Assembly (NCBI GenBank): GCA_014237465.1
Contig: JABZFM010000024.1
Coordinates: forward strand, 1 to 64,000
Length of the DNA stretch: 64,000 nt
Direction of reading: 5' to 3'
Source: Desulfobacteraceae bacterium
GTDB taxonomy: Bacteria; Desulfobacterota; Desulfobacteria; Desulfobacterales; Desulfosalsimonadaceae
The translations under genes were made by a program, and so were the position numbers. Below are positions 13,604-20,834 of this stretch, piece after piece (within the stretch, counting starts at the first letter, position 1; the number at the start of each line of letters is the position of its first letter). A model generated the notes under the pieces. That model did no database searches. It worked only from the letters and a program-made list of their open reading frames with translations, and was not told the origin of the DNA.

Positions 13604-13623
13604 AAAAATTTTCTTGCCAAGTA

Positions 13624-13666
13624 AAATTAACCCTGCTATTTTTCAATTAAAATATAAATTAACCCT
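13624..13666 (+). promoter_or_regulatory. Two direct repeats with 32-bp spacing upstream of DUF4143 ATPase
   Basis: AAATTAACCCT occurs at 13624-13634 and 13656-13666, exactly 32 bp apart. The second ends 18 nt before the ATG at 13685. Spacing and distance to the start codon match the array in front of the other DUF4143 gene, whose core sequence differs. This suggests an operator used by the gene's own product or a partner. Confidence 0.7.
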
Positions 13667-13684: not shown

Positions 13685-14989
13685 ATGGATCAAATCACAT
13701 TACAGGTGTTGCTGGGGCATAACCCATGGCTGCTTGATAAGAATGCGTGGCAGGATATCATAACCAGCCATCTTCCGGATCGGTATATTCCGCGGCACCT
13801 TGTTTCACCGCTTGAATGTATCAATAACAAAATTAATCTCATCATCGGCCCCAGACAGTCCGGCAAATCGACACTTATATGGCATTTTCTGGCAAACTTG
13901 TCACAGCCGTTTCTTTTGATTAATTGTGAAGAGCCATCCTGCCGGGAGCTGTGTAAATCCCCTGCACTATTTTTAACAAGTATTAAGGATATCGCAAGCC
14001 CGCTCCCCGGACTATTTTTTGAAGAGATTCAACATCTACCTGAAGCCGGTCTGTTTTTAAAGGGACTGGTGGATTTGAAACCCAATGTGCCGATTTTTGT
14101 TACCGGTTCCGCAAGTTATCACTTAAGAAGCAAAACACGGGAATCCCTTGCGGGCAGAGCTGTCCGGCATCACCTCCTTCCGTTCGGCATGACTGAGCTT
14201 TGGCCCGAACAACTGCCGCCTTTAATTTCAGAGGAAAAAGCAGCAACAAACTGGAAAGAGCTATTGATATGGGGTGGGTATCCGGAAGTGGTTTTAAATC
14301 AGAATAAGCAGGCAATTCTTGCACAGTTAGTTGAAGCCTTTGTATTACGAGATGCCTCGGATATCTACAGGATCAAACGACCGGATGCATTCAGGAAACT
14401 TCTCTCCCTTGCTGCATCGCAAATCGGGAACCTTGTCAATTTTTCCAATTGGGCTGAAAACGCCGGCATAAGTGTCAATACGGTCATTGAATATGTCAAC
14501 CTGATGGCGGAAAGTCATCTGGTGAAACTGGTTCCGCCTTTTGTGGGCGGCAAACGTGCTGAAGTGACATCAACCCCAAAAATCTTTTTCCTTGATAACG
14601 GGTTGCGCAATCTGTTGTTTGGCGGGTTTGCTTCTGAAAATCAACGGGCGGATTTTGGCGCTTTGACCGAAAATCTTGTTTTTACGGAATTGTGCAAAAA
14701 TACAAATCCCCTGCTGGATACGATACTGTATTGGCGGTCCAGTTCAGGAGCGGAAGTTGATTTTGTTATTCGGACAGCCGGGCAGCTGATTGCTGTTGAA
14801 GTGAAGGCCGGGGCATTAAAACGGCCCAAAGTGAGCCGATCGCTGAGGAGTTTTATCCAGGCTTACCGGCCCGACAAGGTATTTGTCTTTAACGAATCGC
14901 TTGTTGATTCTATAAAAATTGAAGGAATCGATGTTATATTTGACCGGCTGATTCACATACCTTCCAGGATAGGAAAAAATCAGCCTTAA
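13685..14989 (+). CDS. AAA ATPase with C-terminal DUF4143 domain (ATPase A)
   Basis: A 434-residue ATPase with Walker A GPRQSGKS at residues 55-62 and Walker B GLFFEEIQHL at ~108-117. The C-terminal DUF4143 part carries SSGAEVDFVI and, further on, VEVKAG. That D...EVK pattern is the one seen in PD-(D/E)XK nuclease-like folds. The AAA_14/DUF4143 family is very common in bacteria and archaea, but its cellular role is not established. The gene follows cyclase copy 4, with a pair of 32-bp-spaced repeats directly before its start. A second, distant homolog lies at 18772-20076 on the other strand. A defence, selfish-element or regulatory role are all possible. Confidence 0.9.
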   Translation: MDQITLQVLLGHNPWLLDKNAWQDIITSHLPDRYIPRHLVSPLECINNKINLIIGPRQSGKSTLIWHFLANLSQPFLLINCEEPSCRELCKSPALFLTSIKDIASPLPGLFFEEIQHLPEAGLFLKGLVDLKPNVPIFVTGSASYHLRSKTRESLAGRAVRHHLLPFGMTELWPEQLPPLISEEKAATNWKELLIWGGYPEVVLNQNKQAILAQLVEAFVLRDASDIYRIKRPDAFRKLLSLAASQIGNLVNFSNWAENAGISVNTVIEYVNLMAESHLVKLVPPFVGGKRAEVTSTPKIFFLDNGLRNLLFGGFASENQRADFGALTENLVFTELCKNTNPLLDTILYWRSSSGAEVDFVIRTAGQLIAVEVKAGALKRPKVSRSLRSFIQAYRPDKVFVFNESLVDSIKIEGIDVIFDRLIHIPSRIGKNQP

Positions 14990-18100: not shown

Positions 18101-18782
18101 CTTTTTCAAAATAGTGTCGCTAATAACGAGGAAAATTCAATTCTCTGAAGCTTGTGCGGAAGCTGACCATGTCATAACATTATGCAGCCAATATGATTTT
18201 AAACCGCATCACATGCTTGGTTTTTGCTGGAAAGCTGAAGCACTTGTTCTTTTAAATGATATTGATGGAGCTAAAAGATATATGTATCAAGGGGAAAAAA
18301 TAATTGATCAAGACAAGTTAACGCCCCCTTATATCATGGCAACCTATCTTATAGCTCAGTTCATTTTAGATATTACAATATTAAAGAGAGCCTTGACCTC
18401 TAAGGCTGACCCTGATCTATCAAATCTTAAAAAAAAAGCATGTAAAAGTGGAAAAGCCGCATTAAGGAAATTGAAAAATTATGCGCTAAACCGAACAAAA
18501 ACTCTTCGATTGATGGGCGAATATTACTGGCTCGCCGGCAAACAGAATAAAGCGCTCAAATGGTGGGATAAAGCCATCAAAAAAGGAGAAGAATTAGGCG
18601 CTCGACCGGATTTATCCCGTACCTATTTTGAAGTCGGCAAAAGCCTGCTGGAGCCCGGCAGCAAAACCAAAGAATTAAACGGCATCACCGCAGAAGAATA
18701 CCTTAAAAAGGCCCGGACCCTGTTTGAAGAGATGGACCTTCAGTGGGATCTGGATGAGTTGGATAAGGTGGTTAATCAATAA
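15198..18782 (+). CDS. Zinc-ribbon / class III nucleotide cyclase / AAA ATPase / TPR protein (copy 5)
   Basis: A complete 1194-residue paralog. It has one zinc ribbon (C3, C6, C17, C20), then the cyclase (~60-245) with metal aspartates D70 and D114. N191/R195 are the transition-state residues; Thr184 sits where ADCY-type enzymes have the purine-binding Asp, and Gln110 where they have Lys. Walker A is GEAGIGKS at 290-297, and a Walker B-like VIEDLHWAD follows. TPR repeats fill the rest. A GAGGA ribosome site precedes the ATG. Compared with copy 4, the catalytic head and the last ~90 residues are nearly the same while the TPR middle has drifted. The 3' end overlaps the convergent ATPase gene by 11 bp. 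Confidence 0.94.
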   Translation: MKCPKCQRENPEDASFCNGCGLNLQNPESSPSIDFTQPHSYTPKFLADKILTTRSAMEGERKRVTVLFADVAGFTSMSEKLDPEQVHQIMDGCFKILMDEIHNHQGTINQFTGDGVMALFGAPVAIENHAQNACQAALSMQSAIKRYSENLKTKFGLDFKMRIGLNSGPVIVGSIGDDLRMDYTAIGDTTNLAARMESMAKPGTVLVSPITYKRVSQQFDFKPLGEAKVKGKEKPLDVYELIKAKVDRPRLGLERQIYSEMVGRDNDLSKLELQVMKAANGEGSIVNVIGEAGIGKSRLIAELKNREVVKRTTLLEGRAISIGRNLSFHPIINLFKHWARIKEDDNSSTALSKLETAIRSVCPEDTNEIFPFVATLMGMKLSGRHAERVKGIEGEALEKLIFKNMRDFLIKSTDLTPLIIVIEDLHWADTSSIELLEALSSLAETQRILFINVFRPNHLETGDRIIETIKEKLPVYYVEINLQPLNEQMSEMLINNMLNIRGLQHAMVDQIIQRSGGNPFFIEEVVRSFIDEGAVVKTNGEFEVTEKIEKMIIPHTINDVLMARIDRLDENTRDLVKVASVIGRSFFYRILTQVANTVDGIDNRLSYLKQIELIRERQRMEELEYLFKHALAQEAAYESILLQKRKDLHLQVARSIEKVFDERLHEFYGMLALHYIKGEDYEKAEHYLVKAGEEALRSSASSEALNYYQEGLKLYLQFNKDTADPEKLAIFEKNIAIALYNKSRWVEAVEHTDKVFGHWNIPTSPNRILLLIKSAKNIISIMTGLYRLFEKSKPSPSKRDSESSDLFYKKATALIYVDSLKFFFDTISNFNNAYKVDIDKSQETINFFIGTAGVISASGLSFKLAYKMLEIGKSKMDMNNVKILMSYNMIFLIANIFSGNWDRIGRFKKTLVDDAFKKGEMFDALNYIFWFHSLKIETGDFSDTDLWIKKMNEIASSYNYYLGYVYASFFKIVSLITRKIQFSEACAEADHVITLCSQYDFKPHHMLGFCWKAEALVLLNDIDGAKRYMYQGEKIIDQDKLTPPYIMATYLIAQFILDITILKRALTSKADPDLSNLKKKACKSGKAALRKLKNYALNRTKTLRLMGEYYWLAGKQNKALKWWDKAIKKGEELGARPDLSRTYFEVGKSLLEPGSKTKELNGITAEEYLKKARTLFEEMDLQWDLDELDKVVNQ

Positions 18783-20076
18783 GCGGAAACAGAGAAACAC
18801 CATAGAGTGAATAATTGCAAATATTATCATCTTTTCTGAAATTCATTAGTGTGGACCGCGACAATACCAGGGGACTATATTTTTCACCATAAACTTTAAG
18901 GCTCTTTTTTTTTCTGCTGATTCCCGCCTTTACTTCAAGGGGAAAAATCTGCTCCTTATATTGTACGATGAAGTCAACTTCCGCAGCACTTTTACTCGAC
19001 CAGTAATACAGATTTTTATGGTTATTTGATACGAGTTCCTGTGCCACATAATTTTCCATAAATGCGCCATTGTACTCTGAAAACAAACGATTCCCGTCTA
19101 TCACTGTTTTTTGGGATATATCAAGCATAGCGCCCAATAGTCCCGTATCAAGCAAAAAGAGTTTGAAAATATTATCTTCACGATAACCGCTTAATGGAAG
19201 CCTGGGCGCTTTGATTTTGAACGACTTATAAGCAAGACCGGCATCCGCAAGCCATTGAATGGCTTCATTGTATTCACGCGCCCGTACGTTTTTAGAAATT
19301 TCGGAAAATTGAAATTTTTTATTCTCCTTTGCCAGTTGACCGGGAATCGCATGCCATGTATTTGCGATTTTTATTGCTTCAGACTTTGACGTATATTTCG
19401 AAAAATCAAACGTATACGCTTCAAGTAGATTTTTCTGGACATTTCTTACTTTTTCTAAATTCCCGTCTGACCTGTATTGCACTATCGCTTCGGGCATTCC
19501 GCCAATGAATAAATACATTCTAAGGTGGTCAATAAGATCCTCGTGAAAACTCGTTTCAATTGGCTGAAAATCTTTTTTGGTTTTAAGATAATGGCGGAGT
19601 TTTGATTTACCAATCCCCTCAAGATATTCCCCAAAAGAAAAAGGATAGAGGTCTAAAAAATTAACCTTTCCGACAGGAAACGGCGCTGACTGGCCAATCT
19701 TTATACCCAGCAGGGAGCCGGCGGCGGCAATATGATACTGGTTTGCATTTTCATGGAAGTATTTCAAACTGTTTAACGCCTGGGGGGAATGCTGAATTTC
19801 ATCAAATATGATGAGCGTTTTATCAGGATAAATTGTTGATTCAAGGTAAATGCTCAGTTTTTGAATGATTTTTTCCGGCTGAATGCGACTTTCAAAAATA
19901 TTATTTAACCCGGGATCCTCTTCAAAATTAATATAGGCAACTGTTTCATATTCATTCGCACCAAAATTCTTAAGAAGATACGTCTTGCCAACCTGCCGGG
20001 CGCCTTTGAGGATCAGAGGTTTCCGTTGCGTATTGTTTTTCCATTCGATCAATTTGTTATAAATATCTCGTTTCAT
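18772..20076 (-). CDS. AAA ATPase with C-terminal DUF4143 domain (ATPase B)
   Basis: A 434-residue ATPase (MKRDIYNKLIEWKN start) with Walker A GARQVGKT and Walker B LIIFDEIQHSPQALN. The C-terminal DUF4143 domain has the AAEVDFIVQ ... LEVKAG motif pair. I prefer the ATG at 20076 to an upstream TTG (20112), because the upstream codons run through a 32-bp repeat array and ATPase folds of this family start near this point. The gene converges on cyclase copy 5 and overlaps its end. It is only distantly similar to ATPase A. Four AAAACGTGAT-type repeats spaced exactly 32 bp sit directly upstream, which suggests strict and probably autogenous control (inference). Confidence 0.9.
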   Translation of the reverse strand: MKRDIYNKLIEWKNNTQRKPLILKGARQVGKTYLLKNFGANEYETVAYINFEEDPGLNNIFESRIQPEKIIQKLSIYLESTIYPDKTLIIFDEIQHSPQALNSLKYFHENANQYHIAAAGSLLGIKIGQSAPFPVGKVNFLDLYPFSFGEYLEGIGKSKLRHYLKTKKDFQPIETSFHEDLIDHLRMYLFIGGMPEAIVQYRSDGNLEKVRNVQKNLLEAYTFDFSKYTSKSEAIKIANTWHAIPGQLAKENKKFQFSEISKNVRAREYNEAIQWLADAGLAYKSFKIKAPRLPLSGYREDNIFKLFLLDTGLLGAMLDISQKTVIDGNRLFSEYNGAFMENYVAQELVSNNHKNLYYWSSKSAAEVDFIVQYKEQIFPLEVKAGISRKKKSLKVYGEKYSPLVLSRSTLMNFRKDDNICNYSLYGVSLFPLID

Positions 20077-20093
20077 AAATATTAAAATACACA

Positions 20094-20199
20094 AAAACGT
20101 GATGAAATACAAGTTTTATATCCAAAAAATGTGATAAAAATGCTATTTTTGATCCATAAAACGTGATTTTTTTCTGTTTTTTGATGCATAAAACGTGAT
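20094..20199 (-). promoter_or_regulatory. Four iterons with exact 32-bp period upstream of ATPase B
   Basis: AAAACGTGAT (plus strand) lies at 20094-20103, 20158-20167 and 20190-20199, and the variant AAAATGTGAT at 20126-20135. Starts are separated by 32, 32 and 32 bp, about three helical turns, so all copies face the same side of the helix. The first is 17 nt from the ATPase start codon at 20076. This is best explained as an operator array. It is too short and its spacers are too AT-rich and similar to be a CRISPR. Confidence 0.8.
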
Positions 20200-20270: not shown

Positions 20271-20312
20271 GAGATGAATCTCCAGTGGGATCTGGATGAA
20301 TTGGATCGGATT
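20271..20312 (+). pseudogene. Fossil C-terminus of a sixth cyclase paralog
   Basis: The codons read EMNLQWDLDELDR, matching the last residues of copies 4 and 5 (MNLQWDLDELDKV in copy 4). No upstream part of the gene remains, and the frame runs on past the position where the paralogs stop. The following ~75 bp also resemble the sequence after copy 4, so this is the remnant of a duplicated cyclase-plus-operator segment. Confidence 0.75.
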
Positions 20313-20336
20313 GGCCGGCAACTTTTTTCTTATCAA

Positions 20337-20379
20337 AAATTAACCCTGCTATTTTTCAATTTAAATGCAAATTAACCCT
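20337..20379 (+). promoter_or_regulatory. Orphan pair of 32-bp-spaced repeats (relic operator)
   Basis: AAATTAACCCT occurs at 20337-20347 and 20369-20379, the same core and the same 32-bp spacing as in front of ATPase A. No ATPase gene follows; the sequence instead leads into the sigma-54 peptide promoter. It appears to be a duplicated copy whose gene was lost. Confidence 0.7.
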
Positions 20380-20552
20380 GAAAATATTCATTAATTTCCG
20401 GAAAGTTCTGAATTTCCGCCGGAATTATCGCAAAAATACATGTACAGCACTCATAATATGCGCCTCAGCCCATCCGGACACAGACCCAAAATTTCACCAG
20501 AAAAAAAATTATTCGTAAACAAAACAAGTCATTAAAAACTCCCCACGCGGTT

Positions 20553-20619: not shown

Positions 20620-20679
20620 ATGGAAACTTTACTGACAATAGGACACATCGTTGTTTATGCCATTCTCTGGATCGCTTAA
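20620..20679 (+). CDS. Tiny hydrophobic peptide 1 (19 aa)
   Basis: It encodes METLLTIGHIVVYAILWIA, a single hydrophobic stretch with a central His and Tyr, and would be expected to insert in or lie on the membrane. An AGGAGGA ribosome site lies 6 nt before the ATG and a sigma-54 promoter ~50 bp upstream. A near-copy (peptide 3) with its own promoter is at 22808, and differences between copies include several silent third-position changes, which supports translation. It resembles no family I can name; possibilities include a type I toxin-like peptide, a membrane-stress effector or a signalling peptide. Confidence 0.75.
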   Translation: METLLTIGHIVVYAILWIA

Positions 20680-20771: not shown

Positions 20772-20834
20772 ATGGAAATTTTAACAATACTCACAAACGT
20801 TGTTTATTGTTTTACTCTTGGGTGGATTGTATAA
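20772..20834 (+). CDS. Tiny hydrophobic peptide 2 (20 aa)
   Basis: It encodes MEILTILTNVVYCFTLGWIV, following peptide 1 by 92 nt in the same presumed transcript, with an AAAGGAG ribosome site 7 nt upstream. It shares length, the ME..L start, an aromatic Tyr near position 12 and a C-terminal W-I with peptides 1 and 3, but is more divergent. It is probably the second member of a two-peptide unit; function unknown. Confidence 0.6.
   Translation: MEILTILTNVVYCFTLGWIV

Follow-up and report, generated by a model that had tools for sequence, protein, structure and literature searches.

The window analysed in this study, 64,000 nucleotides of a Desulfobacteraceae genome (contig JABZFM010000024.1, positions 1 to 64,000 of the forward strand), contains between positions 1415 and 18782 a row of four class III cyclase, AAA_16 and TPR paralogues, with which two ATPases, here named A and B, are interleaved. 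Both ATPases combine AAA_14 with DUF4143, both are preceded by evenly spaced direct repeats, and a further pair of repeats lies nearby with no ATPase behind it (Table 1). Two adjacent tiny ORFs (20620-20679 and 20772-20834) encode similar hydrophobic peptides of 19 aa (METLLTIGHIVVYAILWIA) and 20 aa (MEILTILTNVVYCFTLGWIV), with strong ribosome-binding-like sites ahead of them.

Table 1. Features of the window around the two DUF4143 ATPases; the operators are candidate assignments.
Feature	Position	Strand	Basis
Weak promoter-like match TTGCCA-17-TATTTT, core copy 1 inside spacer	13614..13642	+	9/12 positions
ATPase A candidate operator, core copy 1, AAATTAACCCT	13624..13634	+	exact match
ATPase A candidate operator, core copy 2, AAATTAACCCT	13656..13666	+	exact match
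ATPase A, AAA_14 + winged helix + DUF4143 PD-(D/E)XK nuclease, PDC-S01	13685..14989	+	Pfam, PADLOC, AlphaFold2
Predicted recognition helix of ATPase A, residues 264-276	14474..14512	+	secondary structure; homologous columns co-vary
PD-(D/E)XK nuclease domain of ATPase A	14636..14944	+	alignment, fold matches
ATPase B, second AAA_14/DUF4143 protein (PDC-S01)	18772..20076	-	Pfam, PADLOC
ATPase B candidate operator copy 4, ATCACGTTTTTGTGTA, 32 bp on	20088..20103	-	
ATPase B candidate operator copy 3, ATCACATTTTTTGGAT, 32 bp on	20120..20135	-	
ATPase B candidate operator copy 2, ATCACGTTTTATGGAT, 32 bp on	20152..20167	-	
ATPase B candidate operator copy 1, ATCACGTTTTATGCAT	20184..20199	-	
Orphan ATPase A candidate operator, core 1, no ATPase after	20337..20347	+	
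Orphan ATPase A candidate operator, core 2	20369..20379	+	

ATPase A matches DUF4143 (129.7 bits) and AAA_14 (93.4 bits) of Pfam above cut-off and the PDC-S01 model of PADLOC at 1.1e-83; ATPase B and all 15 aligned relatives likewise match PDC-S01 models. PDC-S01 is a PADLOC candidate for single-gene defence and corresponds to AAA_14-DUF4143 and COG1373. Pfam assigns AAA_14, DUF4143 and, weakly, AAA_22 to ATPase B, and it detected no Rep, initiator or Par domain in either protein. The Walker A/B and PD-(D/E)XK residues of ATPase A are intact (G55, K61, D113, E114, E357, D359, E372, K374), and the nuclease residues E357, D359, E372 and K374 are invariant across 75 aligned sequences. In the AlphaFold2 model (mean pLDDT 91.4), an AAA domain is followed by a winged helix and, at the C-terminus, by a nuclease fold. 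A search by sequence yielded no relative with a solved structure. By fold, the AAA and winged-helix part of ATPase A is closest to SSO1545 (Z 16.5) and PAB2304 (Z 16.4), with the STAND proteins CED-4 (Z 14.5) and Avs5 (Z 12.6) as the next matches and with Z 13.0 in comparison to Cdc6/Orc1 on origin DNA. Taken by itself, the nuclease domain resembles McrC (Z 10.2) and Can2 (Z 8.9). In a 2026 survey, PDC-S01 takes fourth place by abundance among the defence families detected across prokaryotes and is called unvalidated, and the published text on the family is confined to its abundance and its ATPase and PD-(D/E)XK composition (PMC12988326). An anti-phage role of PDC-S01 is a database prediction. 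Our search of the literature found no report of leader repeats or of a DNA-reading winged helix in PDC-S01, and DUF4143 itself is scarcely named there.

The two copies of AAATTAACCCT before ATPase A are placed 32 bp apart, start to start, and the second one ends 18 nt from the ATG (13685), precisely as given in the preliminary description of this DNA. When the region was shuffled by dinucleotides, 0.03% of trials had an equally good repeat at 31-33 bp, and 0.9% had one at any lag from 14 to 69. Within the 5.09-Mb genome, the pair is found at just two sites, 13624/13656 and 20337/20369; the latter, also with a lag of 32 bp, is the orphan and had been overlooked earlier. The ATPase A orthologue from another genus (G015; 81% protein identity) has the identical pair at the identical lag, and both cores are kept in the orthologue as well as in the orphan copy. 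The weak promoter-like match whose spacer encloses core copy 1 is a speculative assignment; the shuffle control for it returned a mean of 0.5 matches. In the leader of ATPase B, four copies of ATCAC[G/A]TTTT are arranged at -122, -90, -58 and -26 from the ATG (20076) with a pitch of exactly 32 bp, and the genome has this core nowhere else; a sigma-70 scan of this leader gave no match. The spacing originally claimed to be equal at the two ATPases is therefore exactly so, but the arrangement is not, for B has four copies rather than two.

The orphan pair lies in a segment (20276-20405) where it follows what is left of the neighbouring cyclase gene's 3' end, its two cores intact in the absence of an ATPase. 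The same cyclase 3'-tail-like sequence is present ahead of the operator of the G015 orthologue (L317, 440-600). From its occurrence before the operator in two genera, it appears that tail, operator and ATPase move or are inherited together. That the repeat could be no more than a duplicated remnant of the upstream cyclase gene was considered and rejected: the copy at 20337 is duplicated, yet the lag rule is valid in unrelated genomes.

Regarding the generality of the spacing, leaders were examined from 40 related genomes, from 80 loci spread over many phyla and from 20 genomes, most of them Bacteroidota, and were merged into a set of 230 non-redundant DUF4143 ATPases covering many phyla. A repeat was sought within 140 nt of the start, every lag from 14 up was scored with a threshold segment score of at least 10, and 295 unrelated genes from the same genomes as the DUF4143 loci were used as control. 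A direct repeat at 31-33 bp precedes 58 of the 230 ATPases as compared to none of the 295 control genes and 0.85 of 230 in dinucleotide shuffles, hence such repeats are not equally frequent before unrelated genes. At the same threshold, 43 loci of the merged set fall on lag 32 and 12 on lag 33, and no other lag exceeds 7 loci; the ones standing out are 64 (7 loci) and 66 (6), both multiples, and 22 (5). The individual samples behave alike, with lag 32 in 22 of 105 leaders of the relatives (mean of 1.6 at other lags) and in 30 of 81 loci of the broad set, and 32 new loci collected afterwards contributed 16 more, 14 at lag 32 and 2 at lag 33, with at most one at any other lag. Because the loci share descent, their independence is overstated and the associated p-values are too small; the lag-specific peak nonetheless has an internal control of its own. 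No direct repeat above threshold was detected at 172 of the 230 loci, many of which have a single dyad instead, while some show nothing clear; inverted repeats scoring at least 12 are several-fold enriched in DUF4143 leaders (54/186) over controls (12/295). Evenly spaced leader repeats are confirmed as a family-wide rule, though some subfamilies do not follow it. The source genome has 17 DUF4143 matches, and the count per genome reaches 54; three genomes of 2.3-3.5 Mb (G194, G196 and G197) have 54, 53 and 31.

The leaders set in rows of 32 contain 2-4 copies per array, and many of the repeat units are dyads, as exemplified by TTTTTGGATTgtAATCCAAAAA in L198 and TTTTGCGATTGCAATCGCAAAA in L164. 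The cores vary from gene to gene, and their half-sites shift in concert (TTCCGAAA/TTTCGGAA in L083 and L086; TTCCGGAA/TTCCGGAA in L084, with L081 close to it). The Bacteroidota -7 box TAnnTTTG is, in one clade, usually located 0-20 nt downstream of the proximal repeat, which places the array directly next to the promoter and mostly outside the transcript. At some loci (L075, L168, L006, L158), the second repeat copy falls at or within the beginning of the reading frame. An RNA element was rejected as the identity of the repeats, given that there was no Rfam match and that the Bacteroidota array is mostly upstream of the promoter. The class of spacing tracks the protein subfamily. Five clusters are at 31-33 bp; the largest cluster, the YPV-type DUF4143 with 71 proteins, has no 32-bp peak and sometimes a 22-bp spacing in as many as five copies; and a further cluster, of 19 proteins, has neither 32-bp nor 22-bp repeats. 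Four YPV-type loci (L257, L258, L291, L033) display 3-5 repeats in 22-bp rather than 32-bp pitch. In the sister family of DUF234 ATPases (PDC-S27), a 15-bp pitch is found in 7 of 38 leaders, with at most 2 at other lags; dyads or direct repeats of that pitch lie near the start codon in L229, L230, L234, L235, L387, L389, L396 and L397.

Evidence on the protein that reads the repeats comes from their co-variation with the ATPase. Paralogues within one genome have different cores (L006, L008, L009, L012, L014, L015) and orthologues in different genera have agreeing ones, which ties the core to the protein rather than to its host. Core similarity is near that of shuffled controls below 40% protein identity, it amounts to 0.56 as compared to 0.27 at 50-60% identity, and above 60% the core is common to nearly all pairs. 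Together with the family-specific repeats and the subfamily-specific spacing, this rise of core similarity with protein identity supports the earlier suggestion of a co-evolving protein-site pair, with subfamily and core correlated. The co-varying part of the protein is not, however, the N-terminus, as had been expected, but the recognition helix of the winged helix in mid-protein. A scan of all 337 variable columns against operator similarity in one clade of 65 proteins, corrected for overall identity, assessed by permutation of the loci and unbiased over columns, placed K229, K233 and D227 at ranks 1-3 (z 6.85, 5.19 and 4.12) and S228 at rank 6, all four residues in the recognition helix, with operator similarity expressed as a GC-weighted local score within that clade, picked after a whole-family measure had failed. 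With control DNA from -400 to -300, the recognition-helix columns fell to ranks 17-140. Outside the best-sampled clade the helix signal lost strength, its columns taking ranks 6, 9 and 13 among about 310, and the original sliding-window partial correlation over the whole family had no peak because the measure of operator similarity was too noisy across distant clades.

At the level of individual residues, post hoc comparison associated lysine at the second helix position (p2) with a GTGA/GTCA half-site (17/18 as compared to 11/47) and lysine or histidine at the third (p3) with GGAWT (18/23 as compared to 5/42). Fixed in advance and then run on 18 new loci, a small test in which the helix pattern had to be adjusted after five loci had been missed, the p3=K/H rule held in 5 of 6 versus 3 of 12 (p=0.032), the p2=K rule in 3 of 5 versus 5 of 13 (p=0.38) and the p3=E/Q rule in 0 of 2. 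These results are suggestive only of a residue-to-half-site rule that is partly borne out. In ATPase A, the element reading the operator would correspond to the predicted helix of residues 264-276. Overall, the co-variation strongly supports the notion that each DUF4143 protein recognises the repeats of its own gene.

Alternative explanations differ in how they fare against these data. That the repeats arise by chance or from generic promoter repetition in AT-rich DNA has a practically negligible probability: single 11-bp repeats at some lag are not rare in AT-rich leaders, but the empty control set, the near-empty shuffles and the replication in new loci refute chance as a general explanation. 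A trans-acting host regulator reading the repeats in place of the ATPase would be compatible with the spacing alone, and DNA binding by the ATPase is itself a prediction; such a regulator is very improbable, however, considering that cores are unlike among paralogues of one genome and alike in orthologues across genera, and that it is the recognition-helix residues of the ATPase that track the operator. We also regard it as quite unlikely that the array is a target or decoy of the nuclease, in the sense that the protein recognises the same sequence in an invader's DNA or cuts at the array, with the gene's own leader copy acting as a self tag. The invariant PD-(D/E)XK active site would suit this role, as would the gene-less orphan array (20337-20379) that retains both cores, but a scan of 2.9 million viral contigs for two operators found no match for one and a single match for the other, this being unrelated tandem repeats, and a virus-borne site was rejected for this reason.

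The main rival is an iteron-like assembly platform, on which the AAA+ protein would load as an initiator-like or filament-forming complex, in the manner of Cdc6/Orc1 or iteron-binding Rep proteins, in the service of replication, transposition or nuclease activation, with regulation being secondary. Phased arrays of 2-5 copies in 22- or 32-bp pitch and the resemblance of the AAA and winged-helix part to Cdc6/Orc1 on origin DNA are in its favour; we nevertheless consider it unlikely, given that no Rep or initiator family was matched, that SSO1545/PAB2304 and STAND proteins come nearer in fold, that the arrays adjoin promoters and that the number of family members per genome speaks against origins. 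The analogy to plasmid partition or selfish replicons, drawn in the preliminary description, is not supported, given the lack of a partner gene and of Rep or Par domains and the many copies per genome. Par systems differ in that neither ATPase is accompanied by ParA/ParM or a centromere-binding partner, the neighbours being the cyclase/AAA_16/TPR genes. The data fit an autoregulatory operator array better than partition or an autonomous replicon.

Several known systems invite comparison. Iteron-binding plasmid Rep initiators such as R6K pi and RK2 TrfA use helically phased direct repeats and autoregulation; DUF4143 arrays are likewise phased direct repeats adjoining the gene of their probable reader, which would autoregulate as well, but these ATPases have no Rep domain and carry an AAA ATPase and a nuclease, their pitch is 32-33 bp in most subfamilies, and a single genome can hold many paralogues. 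Private operators and timed control of a dangerous effector characterise the controller (C) proteins in restriction-modification systems and autoregulated antitoxins. DUF4143 resembles them in a putative private operator that would insulate paralogous systems and time a dangerous effector; in contrast to them, regulator, ATPase and nuclease appear to be a single polypeptide. The DUF234 ATPases, a related ATPase-nuclease family, also have repeats before the gene, differing in pitch. The STAND ATPases have in common with ATPase A the nucleotide-binding fold with a winged helix, but the C-terminus of ATPase A is a nuclease fold and not a set of superstructure-forming sensor repeats. With SSO1545 (2fna) and PAB2304 (2qen) ATPase A has the AAA and winged-helix core in common; MalT and IniR are further proteins of this kind. 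IniR, a promoter-binding protein whose ATPase domain is SSO1545-like, contacts DNA via a C-terminal domain of its own and contains a sensor region like that of MalT (PMC5760070); ATPase A has a nuclease instead.

Based on the collective evidence, the repeats are likely to be a private operator array, bound by the ATPase's own winged helix at its own promoter and most probably self-repressing. The site is found at the gene's own promoter exclusively for ATPase B, and for ATPase A with one orphan duplicate in addition. The ATPase, probably as an oligomer formed through the AAA domain, would contact through its winged helix the repeat units placed three helical turns (32-33 bp) apart beside its promoter and, thus bound, would most likely repress its own gene. 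Orthogonal operators would prevent cross-control among the many paralogues of a genome, and self-control would keep the fused nuclease in check. A broader proposal, which we find conceivable if slightly more doubtful than credible, is that a single polypeptide unites an AAA motor and a nuclease with a winged helix whose residue-to-base code is readable and evolvable, that the oligomer's geometry can be read from the pitch (32, 22 or 15 bp), and that orthogonal codes let dozens of such proteins coexist per chromosome.

Lastly, AAA_14-DUF4143 is a huge bacterial family without validated function and a leading, unproven anti-virus candidate. The operator rule offers a first concrete biochemical handle on PDC-S01, in that every member with an array gains a candidate DNA ligand, and the family gains a predicted helix for reading DNA, a recognition code amenable to testing and a spacing that may report the geometry of the complex. 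Private operators would help explain how genomes can have up to 54 paralogues.
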